A model generated the notes under the pieces. That model saw nothing but the letters and a program-made list of their open reading frames with translations. It searched no databases and was not told the origin of the DNA. From Clostridiales bacterium (GTDB taxonomy: Bacteria > Bacillota > Clostridia > Lachnospirales > WQUN01): a DNA stretch of 64,000 nucleotides. Below, piece by piece: positions 6,620-61,612 of the stretch (the stretch's first letter is position 1; the number at the start of each line of letters is the position of its first letter). The stretch is taken from NCBI GenBank assembly GCA_031287685.1, contig JAITSQ010000011.1, positions 1 to 64,000 of the forward strand, given 5' to 3'. Both the position numbers and the translations under genes were made by a program.

Positions 6620-8104
6620 ATGAAAAATAATTTAATTGTTTTCGGGGCGGCGCTGGCTTTGTCCGCGCTGTACTCGCTGTGCTTCAGCGGCCGGGAGGTT
6701 CACTCGAACCTGTCGCTGCTCGTGTTTATAATCGCGGCGTTCTGCGCGTTCCGGGCGGTCTGCGCCAAAACCGGGCGGCTTGCGGATAAAAAGGCTCCGC
6801 TCCTTGGAATCCCCATTATAATAATCGCCGCTATGAACGCGGTTTTCGGCGAGGCCCCGGCGAGCTATTTCAATATAATCGCCGTCAACGCGCTTTTCGC
6901 CCTGCTGGCTCTGCGGACGGCGGGAGCGGGCGTCCCGGTTTCGAGGATACAAATAATCCCTTGCGCTCTGTGGGCGTTCTTCGGGGATTGGGGCGCGGCG
7001 TTCCGCGCGTTTCGCAGGTTTTTCAGCAAACACGGCGCCAAAAAGAGCCTGCGGATATTCCTTGGGGCGGCGGCGGCGCTTCCCGTGCTGATTGTGCTGA
7101 CGGCGCTCCTGCAGTCGGCGGACGCGGTTTTCAGCGGGCTGGTCGGCGCCTTCACGAGGCGTTTCGCGGAAATTGACGCGGGGCGCGCGTTCACCGTGGC
7201 GTTTTTCTTTTTTTACTTCGCGGCCTACGCGTTTAACATCGACGGTCTGAAGGCGGTTTCGGAAAAAACGGAGCGGCCCGCCGGTCAAACGGAAGTCAAC
7301 GTATATTCGGCGGGGACTTTCCTTGGGCTTATTAACGCGCTGTTTTTCTTTTTCTGCGTCGTGCAGACGGCTTTTTTATTTACCGGGGGGCTGTTCGCGC
7401 TGCCGGGCGGACTGGTGTATTCGCAATACGCGCGGGAGGGGTTTTTTCAGCTCCTGGCCGTGACGGTAATCAATTTCGGCGTAATCAGCGTATTCCTGCG
7501 CTTTTTCAGCAACTGCGCGGAGAACAGGATCCTGCGGGGAATGCTGCGGGCGCTTTGCGTTTTTACCGTGGTGCTGATATTTTCGTCGTTTTACCGAATG
7601 TTTATGTATATTGACGCTTACGGCTCCACGCCTATGAGGATGGCGGTGCTCACGTTTCTCGTAATGGAGCTTGTGTGGATTGCCTTCACGCTCGAAAAAA
7701 CGCGCGGGCGCGGTGATTTTATAAAACGCTGCCTCTGCGCGGGCTTGGTTTTTTACATTATCCTTAACGTCACGGCCGCGCCTGTTTTTTCGGCGGCGCT
7801 GAACGCCCGGCGGTTCCTGTCCGGCGGGCGGCTCGACGCGGATTATTTTATGTATAACGGCGCGCAGTGCCTGGCCGTGCTGACGGATATTTACGACGCG
7901 CCGGGGTTCGCCGACGTAGAGAAACAAGCCGTTCGGGAGCGCGTGCGTGATTATCTGCGCGCGGAGGGCGATAGTAACCAAAGCCCGATGCAGAGGCGGC
8001 GGAAAGATCTGGCGCTTTGGCAGAATTTTTCTGTAATGGATAAAATAAGCGACGGGAAAATAAGGAGATTTGCGGAAAGGCATGGGTTAGGAATAGGGCT
8101 TTGA
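6620..8104 (+). CDS. DUF4173-type multi-pass membrane protein
   Basis: 494 residues, about 13 hydrophobic segments, with a conserved soluble tail. Recognised by DUF4153/DUF4173 hallmarks: an N-terminal run of membrane helices, the central RFFSKHGAKKSLRIFLGAAA and VLIVLTALLQSADAVFSGLV segments, and a late FSSFYRMFMYIDAYGSTPMR motif. The role of the family is not established. ATG 6620 is preferred to GTG 6611, because GGACAGG is well spaced for it. The stop codon and last residue come from the palindromic repeat at 8097-8157 (GGGCTTTGA), so the native C-terminus may have been altered by its insertion. Confidence 0.8.
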   Translation: MKNNLIVFGAALALSALYSLCFSGREVHSNLSLLVFIIAAFCAFRAVCAKTGRLADKKAPLLGIPIIIIAAMNAVFGEAPASYFNIIAVNALFALLALRTAGAGVPVSRIQIIPCALWAFFGDWGAAFRAFRRFFSKHGAKKSLRIFLGAAAALPVLIVLTALLQSADAVFSGLVGAFTRRFAEIDAGRAFTVAFFFFYFAAYAFNIDGLKAVSEKTERPAGQTEVNVYSAGTFLGLINALFFFFCVVQTAFLFTGGLFALPGGLVYSQYAREGFFQLLAVTVINFGVISVFLRFFSNCAENRILRGMLRALCVFTVVLIFSSFYRMFMYIDAYGSTPMRMAVLTFLVMELVWIAFTLEKTRGRGDFIKRCLCAGLVFYIILNVTAAPVFSAALNARRFLSGGRLDADYFMYNGAQCLAVLTDIYDAPGFADVEKQAVRERVRDYLRAEGDSNQSPMQRRRKDLALWQNFSVMDKISDGKIRRFAERHGLGIGL

Positions 8105-13120: not shown

Positions 13121-13306
13121 CTTGAGGACGCAAAGAAACATTTTGGACGATTAGAATGCCGCCTTGCGGCGGTGGGGGACGAAAGGTTATAATTTTCCAT
13201 AAGCGCGGCTGGAGGCACGCCGCTTTTCCGGGCGTGATACTCGAAAGTTTCGCGAAGGGAAGGAAATGAGGTCGAAACGCTTTTGCGGTTACAGAGCGGC
13301 GGCTTT

Positions 13307-55011: not shown

Positions 55012-55599
55012 TTACACCGCCGTTCCAATCGTCCGATACGCGGCGTTCTTATCGTCTTGGGCGACTCCGAGATACCGCTTCGTGACGGTGAGGGAGGAAT
55101 GGTTGTAAATCTCGGTAATCACGGCGGGAGAGACCCCGTTTTTCCAAGCGTGATAACCGAAGGTCTTGCGCAGGGAGTGGCACGAAACTCGGGCGGCGGC
55201 CTTAATTTCAGCGGCGGCGGCGTTTACCACGCGCCAGGCCTGAACGCGGGAAATAGGCCTCCCTTCGGGAGACGCGCCGCTTTTGCGGCTCTTGAACAAA
55301 AAGCCCGCTTGAGAGGTTCGCGAGACGAAAAGCTCAATCGCGGCGGCGGCTTTTTTATTCAGGGCTATGATTTTGGTTTTGCCGGTTTTCCCCTCCTTAA
55401 CGGAGATGGATTTGCGGGCGCGGCGGCTTTCCGCGTCGTATACGTCGGAAACGCGCAGCCGCAGGAGGTCGCTTATCCGCAGGGCGGTGTGTATGCCCAG
55501 CGTGATTAGGAGATAACCCCGCAGGTCCTCCTTTTTGAGGAAATAATCGGTCAAAGCCTTGATTTCCGCCTTGTCGCGGATAGGTTCAGCGGTTTTCAT
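55012..55599 (-). CDS. Small tyrosine recombinase, candidate phase-variation invertase
   Basis: 195 residues; ATG 55599 (MKTAEPIRDKAEI) has AGAGGAG; the longer frame to 55647 reads through the repeat and is rejected. It is a catalytic domain only: Arg41 in GIHTALRISDLLRL, a beta-hairpin Lys in VKEGKTGKTK, His141 and Arg144 in CHSLRKTFGYH, His167 in IYNHSSL, Tyr176 in VTKRYLGV. All expected residues are present. Without the N-terminal core-binding domain of XerC/D or phage integrases, it has the size of FimB/FimE and RecV-type invertases. Divergent from the 1925-residue surface protein, with inverted repeats between them. No phage genes are near. Confidence 0.9.
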   Translation of the reverse strand: MKTAEPIRDKAEIKALTDYFLKKEDLRGYLLITLGIHTALRISDLLRLRVSDVYDAESRRARKSISVKEGKTGKTKIIALNKKAAAAIELFVSRTSQAGFLFKSRKSGASPEGRPISRVQAWRVVNAAAAEIKAAARVSCHSLRKTFGYHAWKNGVSPAVITEIYNHSSLTVTKRYLGVAQDDKNAAYRTIGTAV

Positions 55600-55629
55600 A
55601 GAACGGTCGCTCCTCTTTATTAAGGGTTT

Positions 55630-55807
55630 ATGTAACACATTATACATTGTGTTACATTCACTGCGCGTAAAATCCTTTGTTGTTGCGAAGCCTTATAAAA
55701 AGTTAAGACACGCCCTCTCGCGCCGCCCCTCGGGAGGGCTTATTTTTTCGCGCATAAAACGGACAAAATGTAACACAATGTGTAACACAATGTATAATCT
55801 GTTACAT
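55630..55807. repeat. 27-bp inverted repeats bounding a candidate invertible element
   Basis: Left repeat 55630-55656 and right repeat 55781-55807 are inverted and match at 26 of 27 positions. Each has the arms TGTAACACA and TGTGTTACA (one mismatch on the right) around an 8-bp centre TTATACAT, which is asymmetric and identical in inverted orientation. A further half site TGTAACACAATG lies at 55769-55780. The spacer holds no gene. Both repeats contain TATAAT, reading outward toward the recombinase (left) and the surface protein (right). Confidence 0.85.
55712..55748 (+). terminator. Terminator-like hairpin inside the candidate invertible segment
   Basis: GCCCTC (55712-55717) pairs with GAGGGC (55734-55739), with a 16-nt GC-rich loop, followed by TTATTTTTT (55740-55748). 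In the present orientation it would stop plus-strand transcripts arriving from inside the segment; after inversion it would face the recombinase. Confidence 0.45.
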
Positions 55808-55834
55808 TCGCCATAACAAGGAGGTTATTTTAGA

Positions 55835-58800
55835 ATGAAAAACCGCAAGGGGATTTTCTACGAGTGGAACAACAAACACGGAGATAAGCCGAAAATCGTA
55901 ATCAAAAAGAAAGCGGTAATCACGGCGGCTTCCCTGCTTATTGTTTTGGGGGCGCTGGCGGGTTCGTTTTTGGGGCTCGCGCGGCTTCCCTGGGAAGCGT
56001 CGGCGGACCCCGCGCCTCTCAAAATAACGCTTCACGACGGAGAGGGAAACAATAGGCCGAAGCTCGAGCCGGGGGACCCGTATGAGGAAAACAGCGCCAC
56101 TCCGCGCCAATGGTTATCAAGGGCCAGTCTGACGTATAGCGACCACCTTCCGAACGACGTTTATTTGACGGTGAAAGCGGCGAACATCGCGGATTGGAAC
56201 GACGCGGCGAATTATTACAAAATGAACGTCAATTATGACGACGCGGCGTTTAAGTTGTCGCCTGACGATGATAAATTCACGCCAAACTCGGAGACCCTGG
56301 ACGGCGGTAAATTTATCGCCAACGTCGCGGATATGGGCGATCCAGACATCGACGACGACGGGTATGTTGAGGTTGAGTGGGGAACGCCTGACGGCGGTAC
56401 TATTAACCCGGCCGGCACAGAAAAACTTAAACTGAAAGGCAAAGACCTTTTCACGCTTCACTTTGTCTTGAAGCCCGACGCGCCCGCGGGCAATTACGAC
56501 TTCCGTGTGGACATCGTGAGCGCGACGACGGTGGCGTTCGCGCCTTCCTTCGGGCCGGTGACGGTTTACGCTGACGACCTCCCGACGGACCTCGGCGAAC
56601 AGGCGGAGGTTATACCCGAGGCGGAAGCCATAACCGAGCCGGAGGAAGAAATTGCGCCCGAGGACGAGGCGGAAGCCATAACCGAGCCGGAGGAGGAAAT
56701 TACGTCCGAGGGCGAGGCGGAAGCCATAACCGAGCCGGAGGAGGAAACCACGTCCGGGGGCGAGGCGGAAGCCCTGACCGGAGACGGGGAGGAAGACGGC
56801 GGCGCTGGCGGCTCTATGCCGGTCAGGCCCTACGCGCTGATACTACCGGAGCCAACGCCGGGTCCGATAGAGACGAGTGACTTGGTCGCTCCGAATAGCC
56901 CCGGCGCAAGCGCCGCAATCAAAGTTGAGCGCAACCTTTATGTAAAAACCCCGCCGAAAGCGGACCCGGCGACCTACGGCATGGGCCTCGCCAACACGAC
57001 CGACGGCCGCAGCATAACCATAGGGACGGACGCGGATATGCTCGCGGACGACGCGACCGCCGCGGGGGAGGTAGTCGATTCGAACGGCGACCCTGTTATC
57101 GGCTCGTGGAAATGGCGCCCCGTGAAGAACGCGAACGGAGATGGGCCCGGCAAACTCTATCCGCCCGTCGGCTGGGACGGGAGCGAAGCCTTGTACTGCG
57201 CCGGCCCGGTTGAGGGCAGCAGCAAGGAATACTATTACGCTTTCTTTACGGCGGACAGCGGGACCTACAGCAACGACACAAAGGTCGTGTCGAAAGTAAC
57301 TAAGAACACCATCAGCCCGAGGCCGGTTGAGCTGACTATGCCCGACAAATCGTTCGATTACGGGGATTTTATAGAAGCGGAGGACTTGGAGAATATAACT
57401 CTCTCCAAGCCGACCACGGGCGCGTGGAATACGCGCGTGGTGGGGGACGACAGTTTTCCGGCTCGCCCGCTCTCGCTTGTGTCTGCCGGAGGGTATATCA
57501 AAACGCAACCGGACCCGGCTGACGGCGGCGCCGAAAAGCAGCGCGTGACTGGGGCCGTCGGCGGTTATCCCGCTGGTTTGACGGCGGCTGCGGACAGTTA
57601 TAACTATGACCCGGACACCGGAGCTATAATCGGGTCAAACTCGGGGACGCAGTACCCTAACTACGTGTTCACCGTCAAGCCCGCGAAACTCACGATAATC
57701 CAGGCGGCTCCCGCCATCGAAGGCCTTACCCTTGAGCTTCTGGACGGGAGCGGTGAGGTAATCCCCGATACAGAATACGGCTCGCTGAGGGTGGGCGCGA
57801 CGGGGCTTAAAGTTAAAGTTGCAGGCGACCCGAACTACGACAATACGGTGGACGCGGATACGCCCGGTACGTACAGCTATACCCGGACCCCGGCGGGCTT
57901 GAATATCAACGCCGGTACCGGCGCGATTAACAGTATCAATAAGGCGGGGATATACACAATCACCGTGACGCGGACGTCCGACGGGTATAACGGCGGAAGC
58001 GGCAACTACAACGGCGAGATTGCAGGCGCGATTACAATCACCGTGTCCGAAGACATCGGCTTGACCATTAAGGCGCACGAAACCGCGCAGATGAACCACG
58101 GTAAGTACGAAGTCACGCCGGAGCCGGTGAGCGGCGAGAACGAATGGAACGTAATCGTTTACGGGACCAATGCGCGCGCGGGGTTAGGCGGCACGCCTCT
58201 GGCTGCTGATAGCGAATACGTCGGCGTGCAGGTGTCTGTGGACGGCGCGGCCAACCTTTGGCCGCCCGCGGCGGCGAATAAGTGGGTTGTGAGCTATGAC
58301 GGCGGCGGCCATTGGAAAGCGCTCAGCGGAGCGTTCAACGCGGCCGACCACCCGTACACGGGCAATCAGCCCGCGTCGGACATGGAGTCCGTCACGTTTT
58401 GGCTCGCGCCGGGCGACGCGGGGCTGAAGCCTATTGTGTTAGGAAAGGGATTTAACGCCGTTGACGATACCGTCAGCCCCTATAACCAATGCGTCCTGAA
58501 CATCAAGTATGTCCCGTATGGGTATCGCGAGGTGGTTGAGAAATCAAACGACGCCGGAATGGGCAGTATCACTCCGAGCGGCGCGCTGACAACGACTAAG
58601 GTTGCGGCGGCGGGAACCGCGCTTAACCCGAAAGCGGTTCCGGAAGCCGGCTATGATATCGACTATTATAGCTTCAGAGAACCGGCTGGCGCTGGCTCCG
58701 GCGCAACTAACGCGGTTTCGGCGGGCAAGACGCGCTATACTCCCGCCGATAAGGCCGAGGGGATTGCCTTAAGCGTCCCGGAGGGCGGCGCGGCCGTCCC

Positions 58801-61612
58801 GTTCGTGATTACGGCGGTGTTCAAGTCTGCCGGCGACCCAAGCACGAATTTTTATGACGTGAACGTCGCGGTGGACCCGGCCTATACTGGCGGAACCGCT
58901 AAGATTACCAAAATCGGCGGCGTTACGGCGGACTTGACGTTGGCGAGGGACCTCGAAGAGGGAACGGAAATAACGGTAACGGCGACGGCGACGCCGGACG
59001 AGGATAAATACTTCGTCGGCTGGTATAAAGGAGAAGAACGCGTCAGCGCGGACAAGAAATTTACCTTTATCTTAGGTGAGGACGAATTAGCGGACGGGGA
59101 CGGCGTGATTTTCCTCAAGGCGCGGTTCCGCGAAGCCATAGACGTGCCCATAACTGTGAGTAAGATTAAGAGAGCGCCCGGGGGCCGGCTCAACATCACG
59201 CAGGTGCGAAACAAACTCAAGCTTGTCGGGACCGCGCCGGACGGGTTTGACCTCGGCACGGTGAGAGAAACCTTCGATGTGTCGAAGGTGGGGAATGAGG
59301 CTTGGGGTAACTCGCGCAACGGCTCGTGGACTATTCCCAACCAGTCGAAGTCTCTCGGCGAGTATAATATAGTGGGAAGCTTCACTCCCGAAACGACGCC
59401 GGACGGGTATAAACTTATCTTCCGGAATGGGGCGAATAAGCTTAAAGTGGAAGCAGACCCTACGTATACGGTCAAAGCCGTGGCTAACTTAGGCGCGGGC
59501 GGGTCGGTAGTGATAACCCAAGTTGACGGCGACGCCCAACCTCCCTATACCACGGCGAAAACGGACTTGATCGTGGACGCGGTTGTGGCTGTTTCGGCTA
59601 CCGCCCGTACGGGTTATCATTTCTCCGGGTGGTACCTCGGGACGGACACGAACGGGACGCCCGTGTCAGTCTCGGCTGCGAATGTGTACGAAGTAAGCGA
59701 CGACGATACGGACGACGACGGCGTAATCACGCTCACCGCGAAGTTTGAGGCAAACCGAAGCGTTTACGTAAAGGCGAATCCGTCAACGGGCGGAACCGTG
59801 GAGTGGGCTGGCGTGGAAGATGGGCTTAATAAAGCTCCCGGCGCCACCCTCACTGCGAACGCAACGGAGAACCCGGGCTATACGTTCGCGGGCTGGTCTG
59901 TGACCGAACCCGGCGGCGCGGGCAGTACAGACATAGACACAGAAAACCTGTCGTACACGTACGTTGTGCCGGAGGGAACGGGCGACGTAACCCTGATCGC
60001 GAATTTTACGAAAATTCCGCACTTCGGCCAGTCCCGCGTGAAAATTCAGAAGGCGGGCGGCGGCGGCACCGCGTATATAAAAACAATAGGCGGCGCGGCG
60101 CAGCCTATGGGCACGCTTGAGGCTTGGGTCGATAACGGCGTTAATATCAGAGTATCCGCCTCCCCCGACGCGCAAAGCGATTTCGCGGGCTGGAGCGTTA
60201 AAACCGCCGCGCCGCCGAAAACGTCGAGCGCGAGCGAATGGACTTATCAAGTCGCGGAAAGCGACGCGGCCGCCGGACAAATCGTCATAGAAGCCAAGTT
60301 TGTAAGCAAACCGGTTGACGACACGCGGCTTTTAACCCTCACGGCCTCCCCCGCCGGCGCGGGGACGGTCTCGGGCGGCGGCTCCCGCGCAAGGGGCGCG
60401 GAGGCCGCTTTCTCCGCCGCCGCGAACACGGGCTGGATTTGCGTCGGATTTTATGAAGCCGGCGAGCCGCTCTATGTTTCGAGGGAAAAGAATTTGTCGT
60501 GGCACGTCGCGCTGGATAATAACCGCGCGATAGAAGCGCGGTTCGAGCCGTACGCGGAAGGCTCTGGCGGCTCAGGCGGCTCCCGGAGCTCCAGCGGCTC
60601 GAGCAGTTCAACCCCCACGACTGGCGCGGATACGGCGATTTCGGGACAGCCAAAGGCTTCCGCGGCGCTCCCCGCCCAGCTGTTGGAGAACTTAAACGCG
60701 GCGCTGAAAGAATCGGGCCTCCCCGCGCTCACGAGCGTGAGAACCTATATACCCGCTTTGGCAGGCGCGTCCGAGGCCGCGGTTTCGCTTGAGGCGCACA
60801 AAGCCATAACCTTCAGTCTTTCGGGAGCTTCCGTGCTGGAGATCCCCGGAAGCGCGCTCCTTAAAGCCGCCTCCGCGGCGAGAAATATTACTATTGTGAA
60901 CGAGCCGTATACCGCGGCGCTGCCGCCGGCTTTCGCGAAGTCCGCCGTATCCGCGCCCGAACAGACCTTCACGATTGTTACTTCCGTGGCGGCGAATAAC
61001 GCGCTGACCTCCGCGCTTGCCGCCCGCGACAAGGCGAACGAAACCATCTCCGCCAAAGCCTTGACTCTCGCTGTTTTGAGCGGGGATAAGGCGGCCGCGC
61101 GCTATAAACAGCCCATTCAGATCAGGGCGGCGCTCCCCGGGAAGCTTTCGGCGGCGCAGCTTAAAAACCTGACGGGCATACTCTATAACCCGAAAACGGG
61201 CGAACTTAAGCAGCTCGGCGGAGAAGTTTCCTCCGACGGCAAGACTTTCACGTTCTATACCTATGAACCGGGCGTGTTCACGATTGCCGTTTCTAATAAG
61301 CTGGCGAAGCTGACGCTCAGCCCGGGCAATTCGCTCGTCGTGTTAGGGAACGGCTCGCCCTACGTAAATATAGCGGACGCGGCGAAAGCTCTCGGAGCGT
61401 CCGTAAGTTACGGTGAGGCGGAGAAAACCGTCACTATAAAATTCGGCAAAAAGACCTTTGAAGCCGCCGCCGGGCGCGCCTTGCCGGGGAATATGGGTAC
61501 GCCGTCAATAACGAACGGGCAGGTGTATGTTCCGCTCAGATATCTGTCGGAAGTCCTTGGCGCGAACGTGCTGTGGAACGAAAAAACGAAAACCGCCGAG
61601 GTTTATTATTAG
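55835..61612 (+). CDS. Giant multi-domain surface protein with C-terminal stalk domain
   Basis: 1925 residues; ATG 55835 follows AAGGAGG. One N-terminal membrane/signal helix (about 28-50, AVITAASLLIVLGALAGSFL). A cohesin-like beta domain (about 60-240). Three and a half 16-residue acidic repeats EAEAITEPEEE (about 262-320). MBG-like beta modules (about 490-740; VKPAKLTIIQ, ITVTRTSDGYNGG). Five InlB-B/Listeria-Bacteroides-type repeats (about 1005-1570; YFVGWYKGE, YHFSGWYLG, YTFAGWSV, SDFAGWSVK). A Gly/Ser linker, then a domain like that of the 35453 protein, and a copper-amine-oxidase-N stalk (about 1825-1925; YVNIADAAKALGASVSYGEA, VPLRYLSEVLGANVLW). No LPXTG. Probably exported and displayed on the surface. 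Expression may be phase-variable. Confidence 0.88.
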   Translation: MKNRKGIFYEWNNKHGDKPKIVIKKKAVITAASLLIVLGALAGSFLGLARLPWEASADPAPLKITLHDGEGNNRPKLEPGDPYEENSATPRQWLSRASLTYSDHLPNDVYLTVKAANIADWNDAANYYKMNVNYDDAAFKLSPDDDKFTPNSETLDGGKFIANVADMGDPDIDDDGYVEVEWGTPDGGTINPAGTEKLKLKGKDLFTLHFVLKPDAPAGNYDFRVDIVSATTVAFAPSFGPVTVYADDLPTDLGEQAEVIPEAEAITEPEEEIAPEDEAEAITEPEEEITSEGEAEAITEPEEETTSGGEAEALTGDGEEDGGAGGSMPVRPYALILPEPTPGPIETSDLVAPNSPGASAAIKVERNLYVKTPPKADPATYGMGLANTTDGRSITIGTDADMLADDATAAGEVVDSNGDPVIGSWKWRPVKNANGDGPGKLYPPVGWDGSEALYCAGPVEGSSKEYYYAFFTADSGTYSNDTKVVSKVTKNTISPRPVELTMPDKSFDYGDFIEAEDLENITLSKPTTGAWNTRVVGDDSFPARPLSLVSAGGYIKTQPDPADGGAEKQRVTGAVGGYPAGLTAAADSYNYDPDTGAIIGSNSGTQYPNYVFTVKPAKLTIIQAAPAIEGLTLELLDGSGEVIPDTEYGSLRVGATGLKVKVAGDPNYDNTVDADTPGTYSYTRTPAGLNINAGTGAINSINKAGIYTITVTRTSDGYNGGSGNYNGEIAGAITITVSEDIGLTIKAHETAQMNHGKYEVTPEPVSGENEWNVIVYGTNARAGLGGTPLAADSEYVGVQVSVDGAANLWPPAAANKWVVSYDGGGHWKALSGAFNAADHPYTGNQPASDMESVTFWLAPGDAGLKPIVLGKGFNAVDDTVSPYNQCVLNIKYVPYGYREVVEKSNDAGMGSITPSGALTTTKVAAAGTALNPKAVPEAGYDIDYYSFREPAGAGSGATNAVSAGKTRYTPADKAEGIALSVPEGGAAVPFVITAVFKSAGDPSTNFYDVNVAVDPAYTGGTAKITKIGGVTADLTLARDLEEGTEITVTATATPDEDKYFVGWYKGEERVSADKKFTFILGEDELADGDGVIFLKARFREAIDVPITVSKIKRAPGGRLNITQVRNKLKLVGTAPDGFDLGTVRETFDVSKVGNEAWGNSRNGSWTIPNQSKSLGEYNIVGSFTPETTPDGYKLIFRNGANKLKVEADPTYTVKAVANLGAGGSVVITQVDGDAQPPYTTAKTDLIVDAVVAVSATARTGYHFSGWYLGTDTNGTPVSVSAANVYEVSDDDTDDDGVITLTAKFEANRSVYVKANPSTGGTVEWAGVEDGLNKAPGATLTANATENPGYTFAGWSVTEPGGAGSTDIDTENLSYTYVVPEGTGDVTLIANFTKIPHFGQSRVKIQKAGGGGTAYIKTIGGAAQPMGTLEAWVDNGVNIRVSASPDAQSDFAGWSVKTAAPPKTSSASEWTYQVAESDAAAGQIVIEAKFVSKPVDDTRLLTLTASPAGAGTVSGGGSRARGAEAAFSAAANTGWICVGFYEAGEPLYVSREKNLSWHVALDNNRAIEARFEPYAEGSGGSGGSRSSSGSSSSTPTTGADTAISGQPKASAALPAQLLENLNAALKESGLPALTSVRTYIPALAGASEAAVSLEAHKAITFSLSGASVLEIPGSALLKAASAARNITIVNEPYTAALPPAFAKSAVSAPEQTFTIVTSVAANNALTSALAARDKANETISAKALTLAVLSGDKAAARYKQPIQIRAALPGKLSAAQLKNLTGILYNPKTGELKQLGGEVSSDGKTFTFYTYEPGVFTIAVSNKLAKLTLSPGNSLVVLGNGSPYVNIADAAKALGASVSYGEAEKTVTIKFGKKTFEAAAGRALPGNMGTPSITNGQVYVPLRYLSEVLGANVLWNEKTKTAEVYY
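56618..56809 (+). repeat. 48-bp tandem repeats encoding EAEAITEPEEE units
   Basis: Three near-identical 48-bp units starting at 56618, 56666 and 56714, and a worn fourth at 56762, inside the giant gene. They encode a highly acidic linker. Confidence 0.85.

Follow-up and report, generated by a model that had tools for sequence, protein, structure and literature searches.

A probable invertible regulatory element between a tyrosine recombinase gene and a giant surface-protein gene in a Clostridiales bacterium

A probable invertible element upstream of a surface-protein gene

The window analyzed here is a 64,000-nucleotide stretch of DNA from a Clostridiales bacterium (GenBank assembly GCA_031287685.1, contig JAITSQ010000011.1, positions 1 to 64,000). 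It contains a tyrosine recombinase gene and a divergent gene for a giant surface protein, separated by a short gap with two inverted repeats. With good confidence, we interpret positions 55631-55806 as a tyrosine-recombinase invertible regulatory element, which is flipped by the neighbouring recombinase and whose terminator would gate the surface gene. A first-pass annotation had proposed such a switch. The recombination sites that it implied were found, and segments between such sites do invert in relatives, but a flip at the window locus itself was not seen. The main features are the following.

55012-55599, minus strand: tyrosine recombinase, catalytic domain only, 195 aa (PF00589 Phage_integrase, 1.1e-25)
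55630-55656, plus strand: recombinase-side inverted repeat; 26-bp site 55631-55656, crossover region 55641-55646 (TATACA) placed by covariation across 17 loci
55657-55780, no strand: putative invertible spacer, 124 bp (112 bp without a tandem duplication)
55712-55748, plus strand: intrinsic terminator; hairpin 55712-55739 (-17.2 kcal/mol, score 26), T-tract 55740-55748
55781-55807, minus strand: gene-side inverted repeat; 26-bp site 55781-55806, crossover region 55791-55796
55835-61612, plus strand: surface protein, 1925 aa, with an N-terminal membrane segment, InlB-B-type repeats and a C-terminal Cu_amine_oxidN1 domain

These features agree with the first-pass description of 27-bp inverted repeats (26/27 complementary, 124 bp apart), a terminator-like hairpin in the spacer, a catalytic-domain-only recombinase of 195 residues with all active residues, and a 1925-residue surface-protein gene across from it.

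In the mechanism we propose, the recombinase would bind the TGTAAC arms of both inverted sites, and strand exchange within their identical 6-bp centres would reverse the intervening segment. This segment fits entirely into the narrow interval that separates the two genes, and it would carry a one-way intrinsic terminator with it. In the assembled state the terminator faces the surface gene, which would probably be OFF or attenuated; in the inverted state it would face the recombinase, and the surface gene would be freed. We infer the assignment of the orientations to ON and OFF, the flipping in this organism and the role of the window recombinase as the enzyme. Since related gut bacteria share this layout and a copy in one of them has clearly been flipped, variation of surface proteins through reversal of the segment is probable in these bacteria.

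The repeats as recombination sites

A repeat pair with 26/27 identity at a spacing of 124 bp is beyond chance. The 1.88-Mb genome to which the window belongs (37 contigs) was scanned for TGTAACACA-N8-TGTGTTACA, allowing up to three mismatches, and the only matches were the two repeats of the window; a control pattern gave 0 matches in the same scan. Across 392 genomes of the order, matches to the exact site-pair pattern were confined to the window's own family.

For 17 loci, the two copies of the 26-bp site, numbered from its outer end, were then compared with each other. Within-pair mismatches at positions 11-16 amounted to 0/17 at every position, yet positions 12-16 differed between loci with a frequency of 0.22-0.54. 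In the outer arm, the two copies of a pair differed in 10/17 loci at position 8 and in 8/17 at position 10. When loci were re-paired at random, a centre match as good was obtained in 0/20000 permutations. Because the centres are identical within a pair and variable between loci, we conclude that the repeats are recombination sites of a Xer-like 10-6-10 layout. As read from the sequences, the covariation of the centres is the homology requirement of strand exchange. The first-pass annotation had seen inverted arms around an identical centre, which was correct; its 9-8-9 division was replaced by 10-6-10 on the basis of covariation and of the relatives. From the 6 bp of this covarying centre it can be predicted which sites are able to recombine.

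The same repeats might instead be operators, at which the recombinase or a regulator represses two divergent promoters without any inversion. Both repeats do contain an outward TATAAT about 40 nt from each start codon, and nearly all copies of the element are found in one orientation. However, a regulator site would be expected to keep its arms constant, whereas here each centre is private to its pair, and a related genome (G017, described below) holds an inverted spacer. We regard this alternative as very improbable.

One further feature accounts for the length of the window spacer.

55769-55792, plus strand: 12-bp tandem duplication TGTAACACAATG, copies 55769-55780 and 55781-55792

The spacer reaches 124 bp because of this duplication; it would otherwise measure 112 bp, which nearly matches most relatives (113-117 bp). 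The duplication supplies an extra recombinase half-site, TGTAACAC (55769 and 55781), adjoining the gene-side site.

Inversion in related loci

The survey of related loci comprised 50 loci in genome contigs, mostly from metagenome-assembled genomes of termite-gut Clostridia and Lachnospiraceae, and more from 38 genomes of the window's family. An inverted site pair was present upstream of the recombinase in 33 loci, which are not all independent. Members of the window's family have TGTAAC-like arms, a spacing of usually 108-119 bp (about 115 bp being typical) and, in most cases, 28-54 nt between the site and the recombinase start. The relatives share a layout of paired inverted sites, a recombinase and a divergent gene, whose product is in many cases a surface or pilus protein.

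Three contigs of one relative (G017 C3, C36 and C54) have a common spacer and a gene for a pilin-like protein. The spacers of C36 and C54 aligned directly (113/116), whereas the C3 spacer aligned to that of C36 at 110/116 when reverse-complemented and at 60/91 directly. The flank of C3 bearing the ribosome-binding site and gene start aligned to C36 in unchanged orientation. Since the spacer matches in reverse complement while this flank keeps its orientation, the C3 segment has been inverted between its sites. Thus, a related genome, of the kind that the first-pass annotation had proposed to compare for the flipped segment, does hold a flipped paralogous spacer.

In a second relative (G029), a gene-side contig (C4) and a recombinase-side contig (C54) carry an identical 31-nt repeat that contains the site, and each contig breaks off precisely where the inner edge of this repeat is reached. 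An assembler halts where two continuations exist; judged by this assembly behaviour, the ends are as expected if the sampled population held both orientations. Some contigs of G021 and G025 also end near recombinases. These ends were considered as inversion breaks but were dropped, because near-identical recombinase copies explain them equally well.

Another genome holds a solo site without a spacer (G030:C172, L107, 446-471), whose outer flanks match a two-site locus of the same genome (L106, G030:C22). This solo site is likely a deletion relic. Recombinase matches numbered 9 in G021 and 12 in G025, most of them full-length or nearly so, and many adjoin the same site centre; exchange between loci is possible in these two genomes.

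Such exchange, shuffling cassettes among the copies in one genome, might be what the sites serve, more than inversion of about 115 bp. The many copies with identical centres in G025 and G021 and the solo site of G030 would be in keeping with it. However, the window genome has this pair alone and hence no partner locus, and inverted sites paired closely at a constant distance are what characterizes a local switch. We therefore hold between-locus exchange to be extremely unlikely as the main process, and local inversion is retained.

Terminator polarity and promoters

On the plus strand of the window, the hairpin is followed by TTATTTTTT and is thus aimed at the surface gene. The T-tract is found only on the strand reading to this gene, so that the terminator would work toward it in one orientation only. 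A strong hairpin with a T-tract directed to the divergent gene was detected in 12/17 loci, including the window, against 0.2 expected from dinucleotide shuffles, and a terminator directed to the recombinase in 0/17. In most loci the terminator starts 44-59 nt from the recombinase-side site. With paralogues included, about two dozen loci, counted by eye, display the gene-facing polarity. The orientation assembled in the window would fit an OFF state like that of the cwpV switch, and the conserved polarity yields a testable prediction of which orientation is silent.

No clear sigma-A promoter was found in the window spacer. The best promoter-like match directed to the surface gene involves the gene-side repeat.

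55793-55798, plus strand: TATAAT, possible -10 box inside the gene-side site; GTAACA at 17 bp, score 11.3, a consensus match only

Each site is only about 30 nt away from its gene, and the promoter-like matches are located within the spacer or the sites themselves. With gaps this short, both promoters are probably inside the segment or at its border, so that inversion would alter the sequence upstream of both genes. In five loci (L022, L026, L027, L030 and L031), a perfect TTGACA-17-TATAAT lies within the segment and is aimed at the divergent side in 5/5; to judge by their sequence, these are an invertible-promoter variant of the same system.

In relatives, a gene-directed promoter that uses the arm GTTACA as -35 and has its -10 box 15-19 nt inward of the recombinase-side site occurs more often than in shuffled sequences (0/500). 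Its mirror image, starting at the opposite end of the spacer, showed weaker enrichment (8/500). This suggests another explanation, in which the segment is a regulated leader (an attenuator or small-RNA gene). A recombinase-side promoter would produce a short RNA ending at the terminator, read-through would control the surface gene, and inversion would be only occasional. The similar distance of the terminator in most relatives and the prevalence of one orientation are consistent with such a leader. However, the corresponding promoter in the window itself is poor (score 0.7), an Rfam search returned no family match, and the conserved site centres imply continuing recombination. A regulated leader is therefore an unlikely account of the segment compared with an inversion switch, though less so than operators.

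A refinement of the switch can be proposed tentatively, and we would not rely on it: a one-way terminator combined with outward or convergent promoters might form a reciprocal valve, letting transcription out on one side only. If so, one orientation would allow expression of the recombinase and the other that of the surface protein, and the switch would thereby set the rate at which it flips. The near-uniform orientation of the assembled copies would be easier to explain in this way.

Several observations weigh against an inversion switch at the window locus. The best promoter-like match to the surface gene, GTAACA-17-TATAAT, falls downstream of the terminator, in the gene-side repeat, and for this reason the direction of control is assigned tentatively. 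About 24 loci were assembled with one polarity and 1 or 2 with the opposite one (G017:C3 clearly; G003:C280, L102, with a different arrangement of its arms, is a possible second case); therefore flipping is rare or biased, or its products are selected against. The clearly flipped copy is known from one relative (G017), the window locus being known in one orientation, and the G017 recombinase is only about 46% identical to that of the window.

The recombinase

The window recombinase possesses the R-K-H-R-H-Y catalytic set of tyrosine recombinases, and R41, K71/K74, H141, R144, H167 and Y176 are invariant among 10 of its relatives. Homologues that are 45-60% identical to it adjoin similar site pairs. 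It scored 43.5 bits against PRK09871 and 35.0 bits against PRK09870, which we take to be the models of the tyrosine-type DNA invertases FimE and FimB. As these scores are far under the curated cut-offs (222 and 221), membership of the FimB/FimE family was rejected. Scores against the XerA, XerD and XerC models were also under their cut-offs, and the closest solved structures are XerC-like, XerA and XerD. A search of viral contigs for relatives of the recombinase found none, and thus no sign of a phage-borne element. Decayed-looking fragments related to the recombinase occur in the same genome, at 13156-13275 of the window and at L125 (G000:C15 43546-43879), one of them split into two frames.

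Surface protein and divergent genes in relatives

The surface gene is preceded by a ribosome-binding site, AAGGAGG, at 55818-55824. In relatives, the divergent genes encode S-layer homology proteins (L015, L017 and L106), a giant RCC1-repeat protein (L010), and a TadZ-like protein (L013), although a PP2C phosphatase (L008) and a protein with FHA assignment (L103) are also among the products. The InlB-B repeats of the window protein are also present in the L106 product, and pilus-like N-termini were recognized by eye, with no Pfam match, in L021, L110 and L116. This set of genes lends support to a role in surface variation.

Other arrangements of related sites

In ten Lachnospiraceae loci (L033, L035, L036, L038, L041, L043, L045, L047, L051 and L052), inverted sites TGYAACCTTTTATTRACAAAGGTTRCA flank the recombinase gene, for example at 7904-7930 and 8669-8695 in L036. 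The recombinase gene would there invert with its own segment, as in a Hin-like layout but with an enzyme of the tyrosine type. Many of these loci have as their neighbour a csrA-like gene (by eye) or one for a secreted protein. In L042, a related recombinase is immediately preceded (upstream of 8001) by the C-terminal end of what was read by eye as a flagellin-like gene. In G002, short inverted site pairs precede other genes at L160, L161 and L163, with no recombinase seen directly adjoining, which suggests that one recombinase acts in trans on several switches.

Comparison with known inversion systems

Literature searches returned no description of the termite-gut family or of the Lachnospiraceae csrA arrangement. 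Altogether, the loci apparently form a compact, self-contained and undescribed family of inversion switches, widespread in uncultured gut Clostridia of termite-gut and Lachnospiraceae lineages. A single genome can hold as many as about a dozen copies of the recombinase, and the genes that they adjoin encode S-layer, pilus-like and giant repeat proteins.

In Clostridioides difficile, the cwpV switch acted on by RecV consists of 195 bp between 21-bp imperfect inverted repeats; it lies upstream of the largest member of a cell-wall protein family, and its OFF state is explained by an intrinsic terminator (PMC2784873). The window element resembles it by layout, with a small, putatively invertible leader, a tyrosine recombinase and a presumed terminator-based OFF state. 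Unlike in cwpV, the window segment holds a complete terminator, and the recombinase gene abuts the segment and diverges from the target. The flg switch of the same species has a 154-bp invertible segment with 21-bp inverted repeats, acts after transcription start in a Rho-dependent manner and lies far from the recombinase gene; its flip was first recognised by strain comparison (PMC5386303, PMC7446863). Both segments are short, in both cases the flip was recognised by comparison, between strains for flg and between paralogues of a relative here, and control in the window would likewise act after transcription has started. However, the window has an intrinsic terminator, an adjoining recombinase and a different repeat sequence.

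As with fimS and FimB/FimE of E. coli, a catalytic-domain-only tyrosine recombinase lies beside an invertible element and a gene for a surface structure. The window differs in that its recombinase is under the PRK09871 and PRK09870 cut-offs, and in that fimS carries the fimA promoter. With Xer/dif it shares two arms around a 6-bp centre and the nearest solved structures; unlike Xer, the recombinase has no N-terminal DNA-binding domain, and its sites are short inverted pairs, not a chromosome-dimer site. Thus, the window element is probably an inversion switch like those of cwpV, flg and fim, in a new form.
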